From positions 434,001 to 498,000 of the forward strand of contig NZ_CP087184.1 in assembly GCF_024749045.1 (NCBI RefSeq): DNA of 64,000 nt, read 5' to 3'. The notes beneath the pieces are model-generated. The model was not told the origin of the DNA and did not search any database. It was given only the letters and a program-made list of their open reading frames with translations. Origin of the DNA: Pseudomonas sp. B21-028 (GTDB taxonomy: Bacteria > Pseudomonadota > Gammaproteobacteria > Pseudomonadales > Pseudomonadaceae). This document shows positions 1,144-56,564 of this stretch, one piece after another. The position numbers were made by a program, and so were the translations under genes. The stretch's first letter is position 1, and each line of letters begins with the position of its first letter.

Positions 1144-1231
1144 TGTGGGAGCGAGCCTGCTCGCGATAGCGGTGGGGCATTCAACGATGATGTTGACGGT
1201 GATATCGCCATCGCGAGCAGGCTCGCTCCCA
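1144..1231. repeat. REP doublet (inverted pair)
   Basis: Two copies of the fluorescent-pseudomonad REP core (tgtgggagcgagcctgctcg and its complement) face each other around a ~35-base non-conserved centre. The doublet lies between the small PHA-system gene and phaI and can fold into a long hairpin. Confidence 0.9.
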
Positions 1232-1363
1232 TAAGAAAGAAGTCAGTGCTTTCAAGATTGTGTGGCTTGTTAGGGTGCCGTTTCTAATTATTCTCCCTAC
1301 TTTGTGCCTGAGCCCGTCCGCATGCGGGCAGTTCCTCCAACCCGTTTTCGAGTGAGGTGCACC

Positions 1364-1786
1364 ATGGCCAAAGTTATTCTGAAGAAAAAAACCGACGTTG
1401 AATCTTCCACGCTTGGCGGCGTGAAAACGTACGCGCGCAAGATCTGGCTGGCGGGCCTGGGCGCATACGCCAAGGTCGGTCAGGAAGGCAGCGAGTACTT
1501 CCAGGAGTTGGTCAAGGCTGGCGAAGTAGTTGAAACCAAAGGTAAAAAGAACATTGCCGGAAAACTTGAAGCGGCCAACAGCGAACTGATTGAAGCCAGG
1601 GCCGACGTCAATACATTCAAGGCCCGGGTTGAAGTACAACTCGATAAAGTCGAGAAGGTATTCGACGCCCGTGTTGCAAGTGCCTTGAATCGTATCGGCA
1701 TTCCGTCTAAACATGACGTTGAGGCACTCTCTGCCAAGCTCGATGAGCTGACGGCACTGCTCGAACGTGTGACGCGTAAACATTAA
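1364..1786 (+). CDS. phaI: PhaI, PHA granule-associated phasin
   Basis: This 140-residue phasin coats medium-chain-length polyhydroxyalkanoate granules. The start was set at the ATG at 1364 (MAKVILKKK), which follows gtgaggtg and gives the usual PhaI length; an in-frame upstream ATG at 1304 would add 20 atypical residues. The motif TYARKIWLAGLGAYAKVGQEG is the phasin_2 signature and is repeated in PhaF downstream. A long heptad-like helix covers the middle, and the end (IGIPSKHDVEALSAKLDELTALLERV) is a short leucine-zipper-like coiled coil. It lies 10 bases upstream of phaF, so the two form an operon that converges on phaC1ZC2D. Confidence 0.93.
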   Translation: MAKVILKKKTDVESSTLGGVKTYARKIWLAGLGAYAKVGQEGSEYFQELVKAGEVVETKGKKNIAGKLEAANSELIEARADVNTFKARVEVQLDKVEKVFDARVASALNRIGIPSKHDVEALSAKLDELTALLERVTRKH

Positions 1787-1796
1787 GGAGAACGGG

Positions 1797-2732
1797 ATGG
1801 CTGGCAAAAAAACAACCGAAAAAGAAAGCAGCTCGTGGGCCGGGAAGATTGAAAAATATTCCCGCAAAATCTGGCTTGCTGGTTTAGGCGTGTACTCGAA
1901 GATCGACACTGACGGCAGCAAACTCTTCGAGTCCCTGGTTAAGGACGGCGAGAAGGCCGAAAAGCTCACCAAGACAGCGGTTGGCAAGCAAGTCGATGCC
2001 GCCAAGGACTCTGCCGGGTCCGCCAAGTCGCGAATGAGCGGCGTGAAGGATCGTGCAATGGGCAAGTGGGACGAACTGGAAGGGGCTTTCGACAAGCGCC
2101 TGAACAGTGCGATCTCTCGCCTTGGCGTGCCAAGCCGCAATGAAGTCAAGGCACTGCACAGCAAGGTCGACACCCTGACCAAACAGATCGAGAAACTCAC
2201 CGGGGCCAAGGTCGCACCGGTGGCAGCCAAGACTGCAGCGGCCAAGCCGGCCACCAAGACAGCAGCCAAGCCATTGGTTAAAGCAGCGGCAAAAGCCGTT
2301 GCCAAACCTGCGGTGAAAGCCGCGGCCAAGCCTGTGGCAAAAACCGCTGCGGCCAAGCCTGCAGTCAAGGCAGCGGCCAAGCCGGTAGCGGCTAAAGCGG
2401 CAGCCAAGCCTGCCGCGAAGACTGCGGCGAAACCTGCGGCAAAAACCGCGGCGGCCAAACCAGTTGCGGCCAAACCGGCAGCGAAACCCGCGGCCAAACC
2501 AGCAGTCAAGGCAGCGGCCAAGCCGGCAGTAAAAGCGGCAGCCAAACCTGCCGCCGCGAAGAAGCCTGCCGTGAAGAAAGCGGCTGCGCCAAAAGCAGCG
2601 GCACCCAAGGCTCCGGCAGCCGTCGCAAAACCGGCCACCCCGACGAGCACGGCAAACTCCGTCTCGGCGCCGACCCCGGTGGCCACCCCGACTCCAGCGC
2701 CGGCTCCATCGACGCCTACCAGTCAGTCCTGA
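1797..2732 (+). CDS. phaF: PhaF, phasin with histone H1-like AAKP tail
   Basis: PhaF is 311 residues. The N-terminal ~140 residues are a phasin domain (KIEKYSRKIWLAGLGVYSKI) ending in a coiled coil (VPSRNEVKALHSKVDTLTKQ). The C-terminal half is a low-complexity, lysine/alanine/proline repeat (AAAKPAxK units) resembling eukaryotic histone H1 and AlgP. In P. putida this tail binds DNA and helps position granules on the nucleoid at division. The ATG at 1797 follows aaggagaacggg. The repeat tail is a natural site for length variation. An intrinsic terminator follows directly. Confidence 0.95.
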   Translation: MAGKKTTEKESSSWAGKIEKYSRKIWLAGLGVYSKIDTDGSKLFESLVKDGEKAEKLTKTAVGKQVDAAKDSAGSAKSRMSGVKDRAMGKWDELEGAFDKRLNSAISRLGVPSRNEVKALHSKVDTLTKQIEKLTGAKVAPVAAKTAAAKPATKTAAKPLVKAAAKAVAKPAVKAAAKPVAKTAAAKPAVKAAAKPVAAKAAAKPAAKTAAKPAAKTAAAKPVAAKPAAKPAAKPAVKAAAKPAVKAAAKPAAAKKPAVKKAAAPKAAAPKAPAAVAKPATPTSTANSVSAPTPVATPTPAPAPSTPTSQS

Positions 2733-2750
2733 TTTTTCAGGGCACACAAG

Positions 2751-2783
2751 AAAACGCCCGGCCTGTGAAGGTCGGGCGTTTTT
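2751..2783 (+). terminator. Intrinsic terminator after phaF
   Basis: A stem aacgcccg/cgggcgtt with a short loop is followed by a T run, 19 bases after the phaF stop. The A run in front would give a U tract on the opposite strand too, so it may also stop transcription arriving from phaD. Confidence 0.88.
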
Positions 2784-2806
2784 GTTCATGAGTGTCACAG
2801 GGCCCT

Positions 2807-2894
2807 TGTGGGAGCGAGCCTGCTCGCGATAGCGGTGCATCAGTGACATCCATGCTGCTGATCCAACGCCTTCGCGAGCAGGCTCGCTCCCACA
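2807..2894. repeat. REP doublet between convergent phaF and phaD
   Basis: This inverted REP pair has the same core as the copy at 1144 (gtgggagcgagcctgctcgc and complement). It sits directly in front of the phaD stop codon, between two converging transcription units. Confidence 0.9.
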
Positions 2895-2903
2895 GGGGAA
2901 GGG

Positions 2904-3524
2904 TTATTCGTGGTCTTCCAGATACCGCAACGCCAACCGTTCGGTCGCTACCTTGGCCGCCGGCAGCAAGTGCGGGGCCACCAGCATCATGATCTGATAG
3001 ACCACCAGCCGCACCTCTCCTTGGCGATCAAGAATCCGCTGGTAGTCCAGCGAGAACAGCAACGTCAGAGTGATCTGTTCCACCAGTTGCCCCAGGGCCT
3101 GGGTGCCGCTGACCAGGAATCCCTGGGCCTTGAGTTGCGCCAGCAGGGACGCCAGGGTGCGCTTCAGGGCATTGAGCAACTGGCGGATACCCTTGGCCAG
3201 TTTCGGCAGACGCCCGGCCAGGTTCGACAAGTCCTGGAAGAGGAACCTGTATTGGGCCAGGCGTTCGACGATCAGGTGCAGGAACAACCAGTAATCCTCC
3301 GGCGCCAGTTGCGCGTCGGCGGGGGGATCCAGCAGCGGTGACAGTGCTGCCTGGAAGTGCTCGAACAGCCCAAGGACAAGGGGTTCCTTGCCATGGAAGT
3401 GGTAATAGAGATTGCCGGGGCTGATGCCCATTTCATTGGCGATCTCCAGGGTAGAGACGTTCGGTTCGCCCTTTTCATTGAACAGATGCAGGGCGCATTC
3501 AAGAATGCGGTCGCGGGTTTTCAT
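2904..3524 (-). CDS. phaD: PhaD, TetR-family activator of the PHA locus
   Basis: This 206-residue regulator has an N-terminal TetR helix-turn-helix (residues ~5-50: RILECALHLFNEKG, then VSTLEIANEMGISPGNLYYHF) and a C-terminal all-helical ligand domain. In P. putida, PhaD is atypical for TetR proteins: it activates the phaC1 and phaI promoters, probably in response to a CoA intermediate of fatty-acid degradation. It is the last gene of phaC1-phaZ-phaC2-phaD, 60 bases after phaC2, and converges with phaF. Confidence 0.92.
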   Translation of the reverse strand: MKTRDRILECALHLFNEKGEPNVSTLEIANEMGISPGNLYYHFHGKEPLVLGLFEHFQAALSPLLDPPADAQLAPEDYWLFLHLIVERLAQYRFLFQDLSNLAGRLPKLAKGIRQLLNALKRTLASLLAQLKAQGFLVSGTQALGQLVEQITLTLLFSLDYQRILDRQGEVRLVVYQIMMLVAPHLLPAAKVATERLALRYLEDHE

Positions 3525-8792: not shown

Positions 8793-8891
8793 AGCAGCTT
8801 AAAGCTACAAGCTACAAGCTACAAGCTACAAGCGGATCACCCCCCGCTTGCAGCTTGCAGCTTGCAGCTTGCAGCTCGAAGCTTGCCGCTT
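8793..8891. repeat. Heptamer tandem repeats forming an inverted repeat
   Basis: Four copies of ctacaag are followed, after a ~9-base centre, by four copies of cttgcag, giving an imperfect long hairpin that runs up to the hslU stop codon. The flanks (ccgcttgc, gaagcttgccgc) match the palindrome at 18741-18829, so this is a second intergenic repeat family, distinct from the tgtgggagc REPs. Confidence 0.85.
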
Positions 8892-46991: not shown

Positions 46992-48094
46992 TGAAAACCT
47001 GGCTTTACCTGACCGCCGAAGGCGCGGGCGCCCCTTGTGCCAATTGGCGTTGTTGCGTGTGGTCGCCCTCGGGTGAACGCCATTGTCTGCCGTTGCACGA
47101 AGCCGCTCGCGAGTTGCACGGGCGGGTGGTCGATGTGCTGTTGCCGATGGAAATGTGCAGCTGGATGCGTAGCGATCCCTGGCCCTCTCGACGCCAGCCC
47201 CGACCCCAGGCCCTGGCATTCGCCATCGAAGAGCAGTTGAGCGAGAACCTCGAAGCGCTGCACATCGGCATCGGTCTACGGGATCGTCAACAGTGCTATC
47301 CGCTGCTGGTGATCCAGCGGGCCCGACTCCAGGCGCTACTGGCGCTGCTCGACGATCATGACATCGATGTCCGGGCGATACATGTCGATGCCGAACTGAT
47401 CGCCGAGGACAAGGCTTTCGGGGTGCGCTGGTTCGGTCGCTGGCTGTTGGGCGGGGCGTTGCCGGCGCGGATGGCGCTGTCGGCCCAAACCTTGGCAACA
47501 CTCAAACCGAGCCTGCCCGGGGACATCCACTGGCTGGACGAGGCCACCGACCGCCCGGGCATCGACGAGTGGCTACTGAGTACCGAGGGACATCCCATCA
47601 ACCTGTTGCAAGGCGAGTTCCGACGGCGTCGTCAGCGTCTGCCCTGGCGCGGTGTGGCGACGGCCGCGCTGGGGATGTTCCTGCTTGCCTGGGCGTTCGA
47701 TGAAGCCCGCATCGGTTTTCTGCACAACGAAACCCGCCGTCTGCATGCGCAAGCCGAGCAGCAATTCAGGTCGCTGTATCCCGGGCAGGATCACCTTGTT
47801 GATCTGGCGGCGCAGTTCCAGGCATTGCAGCAGCGTCGCGGTCAACACCAACTCACCCAGGTCGGTCGGCTGGTCCGCCTGACGGAACAAGTGATTGGCG
47901 CCAGTCCTGTCGAGGTGCAGCAGATCGAGTTCCGAGAGCACGAAGGCTGGAAAATCCAACTGATGGCCAGCAACTTCATCGAGCTTGAACAGCTGCGTGA
48001 GCGCGGACAGCAAAACGGCCTGCCCGTCACCTTGGGCAGCGCCAGCAAGCAGAACAACCGGGTACAGGCGACCCTTACCCTGGAGGACAGTTGA
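46991..48094 (+). CDS. gspL: GspL, type II secretion inner-membrane platform protein
   Basis: The 367-residue protein has a cytoplasmic actin-like domain (~1-210) that binds GspE, a membrane helix (~220-236, LPWRGVATAALGMFLLAWAF) and a periplasmic ferredoxin-like domain that pairs with GspM. The ATG overlaps the gspK stop by one base; a TTG one codon upstream is also in frame. Confidence 0.9.
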   Translation: MKTWLYLTAEGAGAPCANWRCCVWSPSGERHCLPLHEAARELHGRVVDVLLPMEMCSWMRSDPWPSRRQPRPQALAFAIEEQLSENLEALHIGIGLRDRQQCYPLLVIQRARLQALLALLDDHDIDVRAIHVDAELIAEDKAFGVRWFGRWLLGGALPARMALSAQTLATLKPSLPGDIHWLDEATDRPGIDEWLLSTEGHPINLLQGEFRRRRQRLPWRGVATAALGMFLLAWAFDEARIGFLHNETRRLHAQAEQQFRSLYPGQDHLVDLAAQFQALQQRRGQHQLTQVGRLVRLTEQVIGASPVEVQQIEFREHEGWKIQLMASNFIELEQLRERGQQNGLPVTLGSASKQNNRVQATLTLEDS

Positions 48095-48549
48095 TGAGCC
48101 TCAGTGGATGGACACGCCTGAAGCAGGTCTGGGAAAGCATGTCCTGCCGCGAGCAACGGTTATTGCTGGGCCTCGCCGGGCTGACCCTGGTGGTCGTGGG
48201 TTATACCTCGATCTGGCAACCCACCCGCCAACGCCTGGAGATCGCCGAGCGACAATATCGCCAACAGGCACAACTGACCGCACGGATCCAGCGCGCCGAG
48301 CCCGACCGGGACACCAGCGCCGCACTGCGCCCGTTGTCGGTACGAGTCAACGACAGTGCGACAACGGCGGGCTTGGACATCGCCGAAATGGAGATCGAGG
48401 GCGATTCGTTTCGGCTCACCGTCACCGGCGATGCCAATTCGCTGCTCAATTGGTTGGATCGTCACGAGCGGGACGGCGCGGCCGTGCGATCGTTGGCCTT
48501 GGAAGCGCGCGATGGCGTGTTGGAAGCGCGGGTGATGTTGCGTCAGTGA
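48094..48549 (+). CDS. gspM: GspM, type II secretion inner-membrane platform protein
   Basis: The 151-residue protein has a short cytoplasmic tail, one membrane helix (~22-40, LLLGLAGLTLVVVGYTSIW) and a periplasmic ferredoxin-like domain (RPLSVRVNDSATTAGLDIAEMEIEGDSFRLTVTGDANSLLNWL). Its last eight or nine codons (LEARVMLRQ) are the first element of the tandem array that follows. It is the final gene of the operon; no gspN or prepilin peptidase gene follows. Confidence 0.9.
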   Translation: MSLSGWTRLKQVWESMSCREQRLLLGLAGLTLVVVGYTSIWQPTRQRLEIAERQYRQQAQLTARIQRAEPDRDTSAALRPLSVRVNDSATTAGLDIAEMEIEGDSFRLTVTGDANSLLNWLDRHERDGAAVRSLALEARDGVLEARVMLRQ

Positions 48550-49876
48550 TTGGCTGGACATGTGTCCATCATATCCATGGTCAAAACCGAGACCCGTGGC
48601 GAGGGGATTTATCCCCGCTGGGCTGCGAAGCGGCCCCAAGAGCTGTGAATAGATCAGATCGACGGCGAGCGCTGCGCACTCGAACGGGGATAAATCCCCT
48701 CGCCACAGGGGGCTCAGACCGGCATGTTTCCGGGCAACACCGGCAACTTCGCCAGTTTACCGCCACCGACAACGCCACCAGCAGCAACTGGAAGCGCGGG
48801 TGGTGTTGCGTCAGTGACTGGCTGGACATGTGTCCATCATATCCATGGTCAAAACCGAGACCTGTGGCGAGGGGATTTATCCCCGCTGGGCTGCGAAGCG
48901 GCCCCAAGAGCTGTGAATAGATCAGATTGACGGCGAGCGCTGCGCACTCGAACGGGGATAAATCCCCTCGCCACAGGGGGCTCAGACCGGCCTGTTTCCG
49001 GGCAACACCGGCAACGCCACCAGCAGCAACTGGAAGCGCGGGTGGTGTTGCGTCAGTGATTGGCTGGACATGTGTCCATCATATCCATGGTCAAAACCGA
49101 GACCAGTGGCGAGGGGATTTATCCCCGCTGGGCTGCGAAGCGGCCCCAAGAGCTGTAATAGATCCGATTGACGGCGAGCGCTGCGCACTCGAACGGGGAT
49201 AAATCCCCTCGCCACGGGGGCTCAGACCGGCATGTTTCCGGGCAACACCGGCAACTTCGCCAGTTTACCGCCACCGACAACGCCACCAGCAGCAACTGGA
49301 GGCACGGGTGGTGTTGCGTCAGTGATTGGCTGGACATGTGTCCATCATATCCATGGTCAAACCCGGGACCCGTGGCGAGGGGATTTATCCCCGCTGGGCT
49401 GCGAAGCGGCCCCAAGAGCTGTGAATAGATCGGATCGACGGCGAGCGCTGCGCACTCGAACGGGGATAAATCCCCTCGCCACAGGGGGCTCAGACCGGCA
49501 TGTTTCCGGGCAACACCGACAACTTCGCCAGTTTTACCGCCACCCCCAACGCCACCAGCAGCAACTGGAAGCGCGGGTGATGTTGCGTCAGTGATTGGCT
49601 GGACATGTGTCCGTCATATCCATGGTCAAAACCGGGACCTGTGGCGAGGGGATTTATCCCCGCTGGGCTGCGAAGCGGCCCCAAGAGCTGTGAATAGATC
49701 AGATCGACGGCGAGCGCTGCGCACTCGAACGGGGATAAATCCCCTCGCCACGGGGGCTCAGACCGGCATGTTTCCAGGCAACACCGGCAACTTCGCCAGC
49801 TTTACCGCCACCGACAACGCCACCAGCAGCAACTGGAGGCACGGGTGGTGTTGCGTCAGTGACTGGCTGGACATGT
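48526..49876. repeat. Five-fold tandem array of a composite ~242-269 bp unit
   Basis: The landmark ggctggacatgtg recurs at 48552, 48820, 49062, 49328, 49597 and 49865, spacings 268, 242, 266, 269 and 268. Each full unit has three parts: the last ~25 bases of gspM with its stop plus ~45 bases of 3' flank; a ~110-base palindrome with perfect 21-base arms (gtggcgaggggatttatccc and complement) at 48596, 48864, 49106, 49372 and 49641; and ~80 bases identical or nearly so to the 3' end of the convergent MFS gene, stop codon included. The second unit lacks 26 bases of the MFS part. Small differences between units show they are real copies that have begun to diverge. No gene lies here. Confidence 0.93.
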
Positions 49877-49877
49877 G

Positions 49878-50007
49878 CCTGATGCCAGTCAGTTAAAAAT
49901 CAAACGGCGCAAACCCTGTGGGAGCTAAGCTTGCTCGCGATGGGGCAGATCAGCCGACATTGTTGTTGGCTGACTTACCGTAATCGCGAGCAAGCTTTGC
50001 TCCCACA
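49878..50007. repeat. REP doublet with extended left flank, inverted relative to 52370-52496
   Basis: A REP pair (tgtgggagctaagcttgctc at 49917 and complement ending 50007) is preceded by gatgccagtcagttaa and a stretch ending caaacggcgc. The same flank, in inverted orientation, adjoins the REP pair at 52370-52461. Homology therefore extends beyond the REP cores. Confidence 0.85.
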
Positions 50008-50015
50008 GGAGGTGT

Positions 50016-51290
50016 TCAGACCGGCATGTTTCCAGGCAACACCGGTAATTTCGCCAGTTTTACCGCCACCGACAACGCCACCAGCAGCAACACGCCAATG
50101 AACAGGCCGACACCGTTCCACCCACCCAGGTGCCACGCCACGCCGCCGGCGGTGCCGGCCACGCTCGAGCCGGCGTAATAGCTGAACAGATAAAGCGAGG
50201 ATGCCTGTCCCTTGGCGGTGAGGGCACGGCGGCCGATCCAGCTGCTGGCGACCGAGTGGGCGCCGAAGAAGCCGAACGTGAAGACCAGCATGCCCGGGAT
50301 CACCAGCGCCAGGGGCGTCGCCATGGTCAGGGCGAGACCGGCCAGCATCAAGGCAATGGTGGCCCAGAGCATCTTGCGTCGGCCAAGCTTGTCCGCCAGT
50401 GCGCCGACTTTGGCAGAGCTGTAGATGCCCGACAGGTACACCACCGACAACAGTCCAACGAAAGCCTGGTCCAGATGATAAGGCTCGGCCAGCAGACGGT
50501 AGCCGATGTAGTTGAACAGCGTTACGAAGGCGCCCATCAGCACGAAGGCTTCGAGAAACAGCAACGGCAAGCCAGCATCACGAAAGTGCCGGGTGAAGCC
50601 GTCCAGCAAGCTGCGTGGGTGCAACGAGCGTGGGCGGAAGTTGCGTGACTCGGGCAGGATCCTCCAGAACACCGCCGCGGCGATCAGGGCGAGGCCGCCA
50701 ATCACCAGCATCGCGGTGTGCCAGCTGACAAAATCGATCAGCACGCCGGTGATCAGGCGCCCGCACATGCCACCGATGGCGTTGCCAGCGATGTACAGCC
50801 CCATCGCCAGGCCGATGTGCCTGGGATGGATCTCTTCACTCAGGTAGGTCATCGCGACGGCGGCCAATCCGCTCAACGACAGCCCCACCAAGGCCCGGAG
50901 CAGAAGCACGCCATGCCAGGTCGGCATCATGGCGCTGGCCACCGTGCACAGTGCGGCGGCGAACAACGCGGTGACCATCACCGACTTGCGGCCGATGCGA
51001 TCGGAAATCGGCCCGGTGATCAACAGGCCGACGGCGAGCAGGCCGGTCGCCACCGAGAGGATCAGGCTGCTTTGCGCCGCGTTGACGGAAAACTCCCTGG
51101 ATAACAACGGCATCATCGGCTGCACGCAGTACAGCAGGGCGAAGGTTGCAAAGCCACCGCAGAACAGCGCCAGGACCGTGCGCATGAACAACGGCGTGCC
51201 TTTCTCGATGTAGATGTCCTGCAGTTCAGTGACGTCGTCCTGCACGCGGGGTGGTATTTCATGGGCCAGTGGCGCGACAGCAGTTTTCAC
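50016..51290 (-). CDS. MFS transporter, YnfM-like
   Basis: This 424-residue protein has twelve predicted membrane helices starting near residue 37. The MFS motif A GPISDRIGRKSV after helix 2 and GALADKLGRRKM after helix 8 are both present. The pattern resembles the E. coli YnfM / arabinose-efflux-like exporters; the substrate cannot be inferred. The GTG start at 51290 has GAGG seven bases upstream. It is divergent from a LysR regulator, the common arrangement for regulated exporters. Its last ~24 codons are the source of the antisense fragments in the neighbouring array; the gene itself is intact. Confidence 0.88.
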   Translation of the reverse strand: MKTAVAPLAHEIPPRVQDDVTELQDIYIEKGTPLFMRTVLALFCGGFATFALLYCVQPMMPLLSREFSVNAAQSSLILSVATGLLAVGLLITGPISDRIGRKSVMVTALFAAALCTVASAMMPTWHGVLLLRALVGLSLSGLAAVAMTYLSEEIHPRHIGLAMGLYIAGNAIGGMCGRLITGVLIDFVSWHTAMLVIGGLALIAAAVFWRILPESRNFRPRSLHPRSLLDGFTRHFRDAGLPLLFLEAFVLMGAFVTLFNYIGYRLLAEPYHLDQAFVGLLSVVYLSGIYSSAKVGALADKLGRRKMLWATIALMLAGLALTMATPLALVIPGMLVFTFGFFGAHSVASSWIGRRALTAKGQASSLYLFSYYAGSSVAGTAGGVAWHLGGWNGVGLFIGVLLLVALSVAVKLAKLPVLPGNMPV

Positions 51291-52496: not shown

Positions 52497-55400
52497 TTAC
52501 GCCTTTCGGCGCCTGACCTTCGTCTCAAGACTTTTCACACCGAGCCTAGCCTTCCCAAACCGTCGCAGGGCCATTGGCGTGGTAGTCGTAGAACCCTCGT
52601 AGTATCCAGTTATCGCCCTCGCGTTCAAACGCGGCGCGCCATGCGCCTTTGCCACCGCCCGGGTCAGTTGGGCCATGGTGTACCAGTAATATCGGTTGAT
52701 CTTCTTGGTGGTTATCCTTCCCGCGCGAATATCTTTCGTAATGACTCGGACCCTGGTTTTAGCTGCCTCTGAGAAGCTGGCGTAGGACATCTGGGTTTCG
52801 GCCAATGAGCTGGTGGTAACGGTGAATTTGTCCGATGCCGGCGATGGGCTGGGTAGAGCCGGGGGGGTAACGGTGGACGGCGTACCTTCCACTTTGTGGG
52901 TTCGAGCCTGGGTCACGATCTCGATATCGAACGGTTCGTAGTTGGCCAAAGTTCGGCTAAAGTTCGTGATGTCTTCGCCGGTGAGCAGCATGACGTTGCG
53001 TTGGGTCCGGCCTTTGTTGGCGATGATGTAGGGCACTCGATTGTTTCTGATCTCCGTCAGCAGCCCGGGCTTGTGCCTGCGCTGCTTCTCCTCCCGAAGA
53101 GCAGCCGTCAACTCGTCATAGCATTCGTCCGAGGCCAGGTATTTTTCCCGGGCGGCCTTTGCTTCTGGCTCATTACCCGGGAATAGCGCCTGTGCCTTGG
53201 CAGCCAGCTTGGCCTCCACGGCATTGAGCATTTCCCGGGTGCCTTGCGCGATCTTGTCCATGGCCACCTTCTTCCTGCTTCCTTTGGAGGTGAAGGCCAT
53301 GAATATGGCGCCGGTGATGTTATCCGTGATGATCGTTGTATTGACCCGAATCCGCTCTTCGGTAAAGAACATGCTCCTGTGTGACAGTATCGTGTCGTAG
53401 ATTTTTATTTTCTGAATGTCGTTCAGAGTAACGTTGAATACATTTGCTTCGATGTCCTTACTGCTAAGGACGACGATGCTCCACGTGTTCATCTTGTCTA
53501 ATAATTCCTGCTGGAAGGCTTTGCGCCTGGACAGGTTGCCTCGCCCCTGAGTCCAATCGAGTATTTGGGCGTGGTAGCGGTTTATGTCGAGTGCACCTAT
53601 ATCCGCCATGCTCTCGCGAAGAAGGCGCTCGGCCAATGCTTCAGGCATGGACTGGAAAATGTCCCTGGCGGTGCTGACTGCTTCGAGGGAAGGGTAGCGA
53701 TTCATGACCAGCACGCCCTCCACCAACGCATTGCAGGTTCGTTGTTGCGGGGTTTCCGAGGACCGGTCGAACAGACTCTGGAGCGCACCACCTCCGCGTA
53801 ACCGATACCGCTCTTCAACGCGCCAGCCGTCATTTCCCCAAGTGACTGTCCGCTGGTCCGTGCGATTGTTCGGTGAGTAAATGATTTGCTCGCCTGCCTG
53901 GACCGCCGTTTTGTAGTAACCCTTCCCCAGCTTCAGGTAGCCCTGTCCGCTTGCGTCGCGGTAGCGGTGGCGTCCCTCGGCTGTCAATCCATGTCCGTCA
54001 AACCCTTTGAGACGATAGGGCTCCAGCTCCGGATCCGGCATGCGGGGGATGGAGGAAAGCGTCGGGCGTACCTGGTGCCGGCGGCGTCCCGCGCGGGCCA
54101 TGATCAAATCCTGTCCGGCCTCGGCCATGACCTCTCCCAACCCGCTGATGAAGTCAGAAGTCCACTGGCGAAGGCTGCCATTTTCATCATCTACCGCCGA
54201 CACCGCAGCACCGCCCGCCACTGTCGGCAGGATCGCACGACCCAACAGGCCGCCCAGCCGTCCTACCGGGAACATCGACATGGCGCCGGTCAACAGCATG
54301 ACCCCGTTTCGGCGCCCCTCCTGCGCGGCAGCGCTGTCGCGCTCGGCATTGCTCACCGTCAACATTTCTGTGGTTTTGATCGCGTGGGTTATCTGGGTTT
54401 CATGCAGCACCTGGAGCAGGTTCGCTTCAACCGCGGGCGAAGCGATCTTCCTGGCGAAATCGTTCTGAGCCCGATCCTTCACCCACGCGAAGACGGACTG
54501 CGCGACTTTCTTGATCTTCTGCTCGAATGTCAGATCTTCCGACAGCGGTACCAGGCTCGCAAACTGCTCAGCCTGTTCCAGTAACGGCAACTGCGAGATG
54601 AGCCAGCGGGTCATCTCCGGCGTGGCCGTCAGGGTCTGTACCAGGGTGGTTTCCAAGGTCCGGCTGCTGGTCGCATCCACGTCGCGGAACGTCTTGCCGT
54701 CCGGCGCGCCCGGCGTGTACAGCGTCAGCGAGGGGCGGCTCGCGAGGGCCTTGACCCCAAATGCCAGTATTTCTTTCAGTACGCTATTGCCCCAGTGCAG
54801 TTGATGGACCACCACCTCATGCCCACCAACCTTGCCGCGGCCTGCCGCCGTGGGGCTGTCCAGCGCCGCCAGTACCAGTTTCAGTCCGGTATTGTCACGG
54901 TCGTGCCGCAGGTCGCCGGAGATGTGCGCTGCCCAGACCTGGGCTCGCATCTGCTGTGCTTTCAGGACCATCCAGTGCGCCTGCGTTTGTCGGGCTACGA
55001 TTTGCAGCTCGGTCGGCAGCCGGGCGCCGACGTTGGCCCTTTCGAGGATCTCTACAATCTGCGCAAAACTCAGCGGCCCTTCTACGGTGGGCCGTGGGGC
55101 ATTGCGTTCATCAAGCGTCAGGTTGGACATCGCCCACTCCGTCAGGGAACGGCGGTCATCGATGACTCCCCTCACGCTGCCTTGGGATATCCCGGAGCCA
55201 AACGGCGAACCGCCGGTGGGGGCATGGGGATCGATCACCTGCTTCCTGATAGTCAATGACACGTCTTCAGGGTCGACCGGTGGGTATTTCTCGCGGATGA
55301 CACCGGCCAACAAGGTGCGGGTCCGGGCATGCAGGGCATCCGGGGTCGCCAGCGTCACGGGGTCGGGCGCAGGAACCGCTTCCACCAGGGTGGTCTGCAC

Positions 55401-56564
55401 CGCATGGGTCGCCTGCCACCACGCCAGACGGTCGCTACCGGTGACGTGGGGATTGGCGTGCAACCAGTTATCGAGCTTTTTCAGGCTCAGCCGCAGCTCA
55501 CGCTCATCCATGGCCGCAGCCAGATCCAGTCGATTGCCCAATTCCACCATCGTATCCAGCCGGCCCATCCAGGCGTCGATTTCCTCCGCTTCTGCGGGGC
55601 CGTTGAGAAAAACGCTGCCGACGGCGTTCCTTTGCACCGTCCGCAGTTCGGTGACCAAGCGGGCCAGGAAGTGCTCGGCAATCGGTGTCGTTTCAATCTC
55701 GTCTCCAGGGTCGCCGTCTTCCTGCAGGCTGGCCTTGAGCGCCGCCAGGTCCTCGTGGATGCGCAGCGGTTCGCCCGGACGGTACAGCACCGCACCGCCT
55801 GACTCGCTGGGGCTATCGTGTTGCGTCAGCACCACGGCCATCGGTACCGGCACGCTGACGGACCACCCTTGCGGGATCACGCTCAGGCTATGCACGCCGG
55901 GCCGCTGGTACTGCGGGAGTTGCCCACGAGACGCCGCGTCTGGCGCCAACAAGACGCGCTCCACCAAGGCCTTGTGCATCGACGGGCGCAGCGTGCCGTC
56001 CAGCTTGTGGAGGTCCGCCTGGGCCTTGAGTTGTAGGGCCAATTCTGCGGCCAGCCAGGTGCTGACGCTACGGCCCTGCCTGAAATCGGTGGCTCCGGCC
56101 CAGAAATCGTCCAATGCCTGGGTCAACAGTTGTTTGCACGAGCCCGGCGTGATGCTCAGCAGCTGCTTGAGTTCTTGCTTGGCGTCACTGCTGTTCAGGG
56201 CAGTTGGCATGTCCGTGGCGTCATTCTGATGAATGACGAGGTCAATGTTGTCTGGTTCGTCGAAGAACTCACGGACATTCAACTTACCCGCAATCGCCCG
56301 CCAGAAAAGCGTGCCGAGGCGGGTCGTGGTCCGGCCCTTTTCCTTTCGCCTGCACACGAATATTTCCTTGGCGGTGACGTTGCCAGGCAGGGCGGGGAAG
56401 GTTCTGCTGAACCAGTCATCCAGATACTCCTCCAGCACCCCGGAGGCACGTGGAAAGGCACCGTTCAGGCGGATCATCTGTTGCTGCGAGGTTTCCAGCA
56501 GGTTTATCAGCGGGGTACTCGGGGTTGGCGGGCTATCAGTCCGTGAGGGGGTGTTTTCCAACAT
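52497..56564 (-). CDS. Large dermonecrotic-toxin-like (DUF6543-type) protein, 1355 aa
   Basis: The N-terminal ~600 residues look like the DUF6543 / dermonecrotic toxin N-terminal region of many very large Pseudomonas proteins, including RGVIDDRRSLTEWAMSNLTLDE (~464-486) and SFAQIVEILERANVGARLPTEL. A hydrophobic, glycine-rich segment (~754-790, VMLLTGAMSMFPVGRLGGLL) follows, then a repeat-like module (~855-925, GQGYLKLGKGYYKTAV). The last ~370 residues match nothing I recognise: an AT-rich coded part (~1000-1100), a charged helix, a proline linker (~1226-1245) and a basic tail ending VRRRKA. There is no signal peptide. It stands alone, with no adjacent immunity-like, chaperone or transporter gene. 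Function is inferred from the family only. Confidence 0.7.
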   Translation of the reverse strand: MLENTPSRTDSPPTPSTPLINLLETSQQQMIRLNGAFPRASGVLEEYLDDWFSRTFPALPGNVTAKEIFVCRRKEKGRTTTRLGTLFWRAIAGKLNVREFFDEPDNIDLVIHQNDATDMPTALNSSDAKQELKQLLSITPGSCKQLLTQALDDFWAGATDFRQGRSVSTWLAAELALQLKAQADLHKLDGTLRPSMHKALVERVLLAPDAASRGQLPQYQRPGVHSLSVIPQGWSVSVPVPMAVVLTQHDSPSESGGAVLYRPGEPLRIHEDLAALKASLQEDGDPGDEIETTPIAEHFLARLVTELRTVQRNAVGSVFLNGPAEAEEIDAWMGRLDTMVELGNRLDLAAAMDERELRLSLKKLDNWLHANPHVTGSDRLAWWQATHAVQTTLVEAVPAPDPVTLATPDALHARTRTLLAGVIREKYPPVDPEDVSLTIRKQVIDPHAPTGGSPFGSGISQGSVRGVIDDRRSLTEWAMSNLTLDERNAPRPTVEGPLSFAQIVEILERANVGARLPTELQIVARQTQAHWMVLKAQQMRAQVWAAHISGDLRHDRDNTGLKLVLAALDSPTAAGRGKVGGHEVVVHQLHWGNSVLKEILAFGVKALASRPSLTLYTPGAPDGKTFRDVDATSSRTLETTLVQTLTATPEMTRWLISQLPLLEQAEQFASLVPLSEDLTFEQKIKKVAQSVFAWVKDRAQNDFARKIASPAVEANLLQVLHETQITHAIKTTEMLTVSNAERDSAAAQEGRRNGVMLLTGAMSMFPVGRLGGLLGRAILPTVAGGAAVSAVDDENGSLRQWTSDFISGLGEVMAEAGQDLIMARAGRRRHQVRPTLSSIPRMPDPELEPYRLKGFDGHGLTAEGRHRYRDASGQGYLKLGKGYYKTAVQAGEQIIYSPNNRTDQRTVTWGNDGWRVEERYRLRGGGALQSLFDRSSETPQQRTCNALVEGVLVMNRYPSLEAVSTARDIFQSMPEALAERLLRESMADIGALDINRYHAQILDWTQGRGNLSRRKAFQQELLDKMNTWSIVVLSSKDIEANVFNVTLNDIQKIKIYDTILSHRSMFFTEERIRVNTTIITDNITGAIFMAFTSKGSRKKVAMDKIAQGTREMLNAVEAKLAAKAQALFPGNEPEAKAAREKYLASDECYDELTAALREEKQRRHKPGLLTEIRNNRVPYIIANKGRTQRNVMLLTGEDITNFSRTLANYEPFDIEIVTQARTHKVEGTPSTVTPPALPSPSPASDKFTVTTSSLAETQMSYASFSEAAKTRVRVITKDIRAGRITTKKINRYYWYTMAQLTRAVAKAHGAPRLNARAITGYYEGSTTTTPMALRRFGKARLGVKSLETKVRRRKA

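Follow-up and report, generated by a model that had tools for sequence, protein, structure and literature searches.

Bertels and Rainey (2011, PMC3116915) introduced the term REPIN for inverted pairs of REP sequences. In P. fluorescens SBW25, 16 tandem REPIN clusters 'including the flanking sequences' were described, the largest consisting of four REPINs and one REP, and the ordered arrangement of such clusters was considered to point to a second mechanism of cluster formation (PMC3116915). The same strain carries the tandem REP arrays GI-GIII, in which two REP classes alternate regularly as single REPs (PMC3116915). Large clusters of GTAG-family REPs associated with flanking DNA segments were documented by Di Nocera et al. 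(2013, PMC3733652), and tandem REP doublets located between genes occur in E. coli as BIMEs (named in PMC3686654). Neither the REP class nor the repeat unit of BIMEs is that of the array described below. BIMEs are bound by several proteins, namely IHF, DNA gyrase and Pol I. Tandem duplications able to hold two alleles are represented by the transformation merodiploids of S. pneumoniae, in which the main cases measure at least 107 kb and have their joins at repeats, one very small case being mentioned as well (PMC3784515).

The array found between gspM and an MFS transporter gene in Pseudomonas sp. B21-028 is a further case of a known kind, the tandem REPIN cluster with flanks, for which SBW25 provided the precedent in 2011. 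It lies in a stretch of 64,000 nucleotides (contig NZ_CP087184.1, positions 434,001 to 498,000), hereafter the window. As in the SBW25 clusters, near-identical REPINs follow each other head to tail together with their flanks (f1-REPIN-f2), but the array comprises six units, its flanks are the ends of two convergent genes and its last REPIN belongs to another class; neither of the latter two features is mentioned for the REPIN clusters in the relevant part of PMC3116915. It shares with GI-GIII the presence of two REP classes in one tandem array, except that here five REPINs of one class precede one of the other. In contrast to the GTAG clusters, for which the corresponding part of PMC3733652 gives neither, single-copy alleles from relatives and an analysis of the join points are provided. 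Finally, the units are about 270 bp long and joined without homology, unlike most of the S. pneumoniae merodiploids. What makes this array informative is the class change of its last unit together with the single-copy alleles of relatives, and it bears on how ordered REPIN clusters form.

Organization of the array and its REPIN classes

Tandem Repeats Finder and a repeat search were concordant in resolving positions 48521-50091 into six direct units arranged head to tail (Table 1), in each of which a REPIN, two REPs in inverted orientation, separates a gspM end from an antisense MFS-gene end. The first 29 nt of every unit are the final ones of gspM, TGA stop included, and an antisense MFS end of 75-76 nt, with its stop, closes units 1, 3, 4, 5 and 6 in the alignment. 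Gene ends fall within the unit because REPINs sit tightly between genes. Pairwise differences among units 1-5 amount to 1.5-4.5%, with substitutions in 16 of 269 alignment columns overall and in none of the 42 arm columns, and unit 2 carries an internal deletion.

Table 1. Coordinates and contents of the flanking genes, the array units and the further tandem A-REPIN arrays (window positions unless stated otherwise)
Feature	Position	Strand	Length (bp)	Contents
gspM	48094..48549	+		T2SS protein M, Pfam PF04612; intact; ends in unit 1
Unit 1	48521..48788	+	268	real gspM end, stop 48547-48549; A-type REPIN 48596-48706; antisense MFS end 48714-48788
Unit 2	48789..49030	+	242	A-type REPIN 48864-48974; MFS end 26-27 nt shorter than in the other units
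Unit 3	49031..49296	+	266	A-type REPIN 49106-49215
Unit 4	49297..49565	+	269	A-type REPIN 49372-49482; gspM end in the TGGAGGCACGGG version
Unit 5	49566..49833	+	268	A-type REPIN 49641-49751
Unit 6	49834..50091	+	258	copied gspM end; REPIN of the B type, 49918-50006; real MFS end, starting at 50016
MFS transporter gene	50016..51290	-		MFS_1, PF07690; intact; convergent; ends in unit 6
L053	own genome C1:1301500-1304800, 1226-2170			3 units; convergent gene pair; pieces of both gene ends
L054				4 units; 3' part of upstream gene four times, gene itself counted
L073				3 units; at least 60 nt of upstream gene end three times, gene itself counted
L074	own genome C1:4732000-4735500, 1208-3501			at least 11 units of 210 bp; runs off the stretch examined; longer than the gspM-MFS array
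L075				6 units; short piece of neighbouring gene (by eye)

Units 1-5 contain an A-type REPIN, an inverted pair of GTGGCGAGGGGATTTATCCCC whose perfect 21-nt arms span 110-111 bp in each unit and match the consensus GTGGyGAGGGGATTTATCCCCG of REP class PF5 (Nunvar 2013, PMC3686654). A scan of the 64 kb with up to three mismatches detected 10 arms, all exact (shuffle mean 0.01), and genome-wide the exact 21-mer occurs 428 times (210 on the + strand and 218 on the - strand; control 0). Unit 6 holds a B-type REPIN, of another class (GTGGGAGC...GCTTGCTCGCGAT), and three more B-type or near-B-type inverted pairs occur elsewhere in the window. Both palindromes are predicted to form strong single-strand hairpins, with DNA fold z-scores of -6.97 for the A type (unit 1) and -9.26 for the B type. 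The array combines the elements of a tandem REPIN cluster, i.e. hairpin-forming inverted REP doublets, a high-copy REP and near-identical REPINs in tandem with flanks; unit 6 departs from near identity, since its REPIN differs. Homology between the A and B flanks was considered and found no support, their alignment being no better than that of shuffled sequences (28.5% of 2000 shuffles scored as well). Among four RAYT candidates in the genome (PF01797 matches), PF19 or PF8-like REPs flank two loci, five REP classes having been tried, and no A-type REP was found beside the RAYT gene within the 3.2-3.3 kb searched at each of the four loci (up to three mismatches).

An earlier note on this DNA had described a direct-repeat array following gspM, made of the gspM tail, a palindrome of 110 bases with perfect 21-base arms and the antisense MFS tail, with a different REP class in the last copy. 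The pairwise alignment that it proposed bears this out, the palindrome holding for units 1-5. Its count of five units has to be raised to six, as the copy with the different REP contains the ends of both genes and is thereby a full unit of its own.

Other repeats were recorded in the window, namely tandem repeats of 12, 24, 42 and 51 bp at 2236-2548, with units rich in GCC, GCG, AAG and AAA, and the adjoining heptamer arrays AAGCTAC x4.6 and GCTTGCA x6.6 at 8802-8891. Near the array, positions 52497-56564 encode, on the - strand, a 1355-aa protein with a ToxA_N domain match (PF20178).

Alleles at the site in related species

A GspM scan limited to one genome per species provided 12 related loci, and the gspM-MFS site is single copy in all of them. 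Read by eye, 11 of these sites contain a REP, a REPIN or a remnant of several classes, and no REP was seen at the twelfth (L010). Four of the five closest relatives, P. corrugata (L001), ICMP22404 (L003), P. mediterranea (L004) and PSB18 (L005), carry the B-type REPIN together with the 5' flank of unit 6, and in the fifth, SJZ074 (L002), the A-type flank (GTGTCCATCATATCC) is accompanied by a mere REPIN scrap. The A flank was detected in one of 398 Pseudomonas genomes (up to two mismatches), a sample from which the species of L002, which also has this flank, is evidently absent. Within the genomes searched, the array is private to this genome, in which it stacks two intergenic alleles known elsewhere as single copies. 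The B part of unit 6 (49880-50015) is 93-98% identical to L001, L003, L004 and L005, ordinary species-level distances that would fit vertical descent and an old import alike.

Outside the non-coding part, the two alleles are told apart by one gspM-end site (GTG[A/G]TG) and one MFS-end site only. The gspM end reads GTGATG in L002 versus GTGGTG in L001, L003 and L004; units 1 and 5 have the A-like base, and the B-like base is present in units 2, 3, 4 and 6. At the MFS end (AACTTC in A versus AATTTC in B), units 1, 3, 4 and 5 are A-like and unit 6 is B-like, unit 2 being deleted or unclear. This mosaic, as far as these few sites go, would fit exchange between A and B copies.

Signals of import in the surrounding DNA are conflicting. 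By trees and shared sites, the genome falls between two groups, L001/L003/L005 and L002/L004; the sites conflict and the trees are weakly supported. In the 2 kb to the left of the array, 26 sites are shared with L002 and L004 versus 17 with L001, L003 and L005; the figures are 12 versus 22 farther left and 16 versus 18 to the right. The segment 47293-47592 is 93.0% identical to L002 and L004 versus 88.0-89.3% to L001, L003 and L005, and in the sliding comparison no relative stands out at 47593-48492, which adjoins the array. A clear import tract around the array was therefore not established, given the conflicting sites between the two groups of relatives.

Further tandem arrays and the join points

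The genome contains no fewer than five other arrays of A-REPINs in tandem (Table 1), a lower bound obtained among the first 100 places listed for the 21-mer and by spacing searches for gaps of 178-208 and 230-260. Gene pieces are clear in three of them (L053, L054 and L073) and were recognized by eye in a fourth (L075); none was found in the single test made at L074, an array located upstream of a transporter-like reading frame. The units of L053 contain the last 9 nt of one gene, altered at the stop in one copy, and a longer piece of the other, of some 150 nt or more, the two convergent genes being, we assume, tcdA and sufE. The fuzzy search for gene ends was poorly tuned. A 9-nt end matched everywhere and was disregarded, and for the first L053 gene (20-nt end) and the L054 gene (40- and 60-nt ends) the only matches were the genes themselves, the pieces within the units being shorter or more internal. 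With the 77-nt MFS end, this search recovered four of the six copies, all six being visible in the alignment, and at L075 it returned the gene itself only, the shorter common piece being seen by eye in the same output.

The L053 site also illustrates the fate of REPINs in relatives. One collapsed A palindrome is present at this site in each of L001 and L002, and a REPIN of yet another class in L004. In these sequences (L060 and L063), the L001 remnant is a 28-base palindrome with 13-base arms and a 2-base centre, and that of L002 is the same minus one base. Apparently these collapsed palindromes arose by spacer loss. REPIN turnover is thus visible at this site as well.

As single-copy relatives show the gspM-MFS locus without duplication, its join can be read directly. 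The position of the junction is identical in all five junctions of the array. Microhomology at the join is 0 bp, as in an illegitimate blunt join, a feature common to any blunt tandem duplication; it is 1 bp at L053 and at most 1 bp at L073 (by eye). The three joins examined all lie outside the REPIN, which, as read by eye in all three arrays, is separated from them by 75 and 82 bp in the present array, about 17 and 167 bp at L053 and about 140 and 24 bp at L073. Blunt joins outside the REPIN and at varied distances speak against recombination from REP to REP and against ends set by REPs. Ends fixed by a REP or RAYT transposase are likewise not favoured, because the distances vary. Breakage or template switching near the hairpin is the source of the joins that we infer.

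The earlier note had proposed a constant junction, arising from one founding event followed by unequal exchange. Constancy holds for the position; the sequence on the gspM side occurs in two versions, TGGAAGCGCGGG in three junctions and TGGAGGCACGGG in two. A single founding junction and subsequent unequal exchange are supported by the identical position of all five joins, the 1.5-4.5% divergence and the deletion in unit 2. The search in other genomes that the note had suggested (up to three mismatches) detected the junction in one of the 398 Pseudomonas genomes, the present one, five times.

History of the array and rival explanations

We consider, with a probability of about 0.75, that this tandem REPIN cluster was formed by local blunt duplication and unequal crossing-over, with unit 6 representing the usual allele of the group, a history read from one strain and from one genome per species. 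The starting point would be a REPIN in the gap of a convergent gene pair. Duplicated locally in tandem, with a blunt join inside the ends of both genes and probably through faulty replication or repair near the hairpin, it would have gained a second copy. Unequal crossing-over between copies, presumably dependent on RecA, would then have brought the A-type units to five and mixed their variants, and perhaps deleted part of unit 2. The B-type REPIN and flank usual in the group would persist in unit 6, leaving two alleles side by side, an exchange of DNA with a relative having probably brought A and B together. The earlier note had the intergenic palindrome of the last copy replaced after the amplification. 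That order was probably the reverse: unit 6 most likely keeps the usual state, because four of the five closest species share its REPIN and 5' flank. Most simply, B would be the resident allele; a later import of B is possible and not favoured.

Close to the view of the earlier note is a scenario in which all units were once of the A type, until a B-type relative contributed, by ordinary homologous recombination, a new right part of the last unit along with the beginning of the MFS side. For the left crossover, about 44 bp of homology are available in the conserved gspM end and the CTGGACATGTG stretch, and positions 50300-50399 are 100% identical to L005 versus 90-97% to the other four relatives. 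However, the B part of unit 6 is closer to L004 (97.8%) than to L005 (95.6%), the presence of B in most close species makes an import unnecessary, and units 2-4 pair a B-like gspM-end base with an A-type flank, which would call for later conversion. Such a replacement is possible, yet clearly the less probable history.

Somewhat more doubtful is a founding recombination of the resident B allele with incoming A DNA, by homology at one end and by an illegitimate join at the other, generating an A-B merodiploid of this short segment, whose A half was later amplified. The literature describes merodiploids made by transformation (PMC3784515) as well as homology-facilitated illegitimate recombination, and several features of the locus point the same way: both alleles occur singly in related species, the join is blunt, the gspM ends are a mosaic of A-like and B-like states, and the left side is nearer to L002 and L004, at 47293-47592 and in shared sites. 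Against this scenario, arrays L073-L075 show no B-type arm on the + strand, so that duplication needs no second allele, and the DNA directly beside the array favours no relative, with trees weakly supported.

We infer that the array does nothing that gspM or the MFS gene requires; both genes stay intact. This inference stands against the suggestion by Bertels and Rainey, in the part of PMC3116915 concerned, that ordered REPIN clusters have specific functional roles. With strong predicted hairpins and arms free of substitutions, selection of the array as a barrier to transcription or replication between convergent genes could be envisaged. Yet all 12 relatives lack the array, L010 being without any visible REP, and L073 and L075 lie between reading frames of the same direction. 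No promoter-like or terminator-like site was detected in the array, the terminator scan covering loops of 3-8 nt, which places the REPIN hairpins outside its reach; no Rfam family was found either. Selection as a barrier is thus quite improbable. An assembly artefact, to which tandem repeats are prone, is very unlikely, since the units have distinct substitutions and indels of their own and the genome is a single contig of 6,493,931 bases.

While local duplication with unit 6 as the usual allele remains the preferred history, the array might tentatively be regarded as the fossil of two diverged alleles, A and B, that came from different lineages and were joined bluntly in tandem, only the A half having been amplified while exchanging gene-end pieces with B. 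We hold this to be unlikely. If true, REPIN-bearing gene boundaries in this group would be places where alleles of different species are stacked instead of replacing each other.
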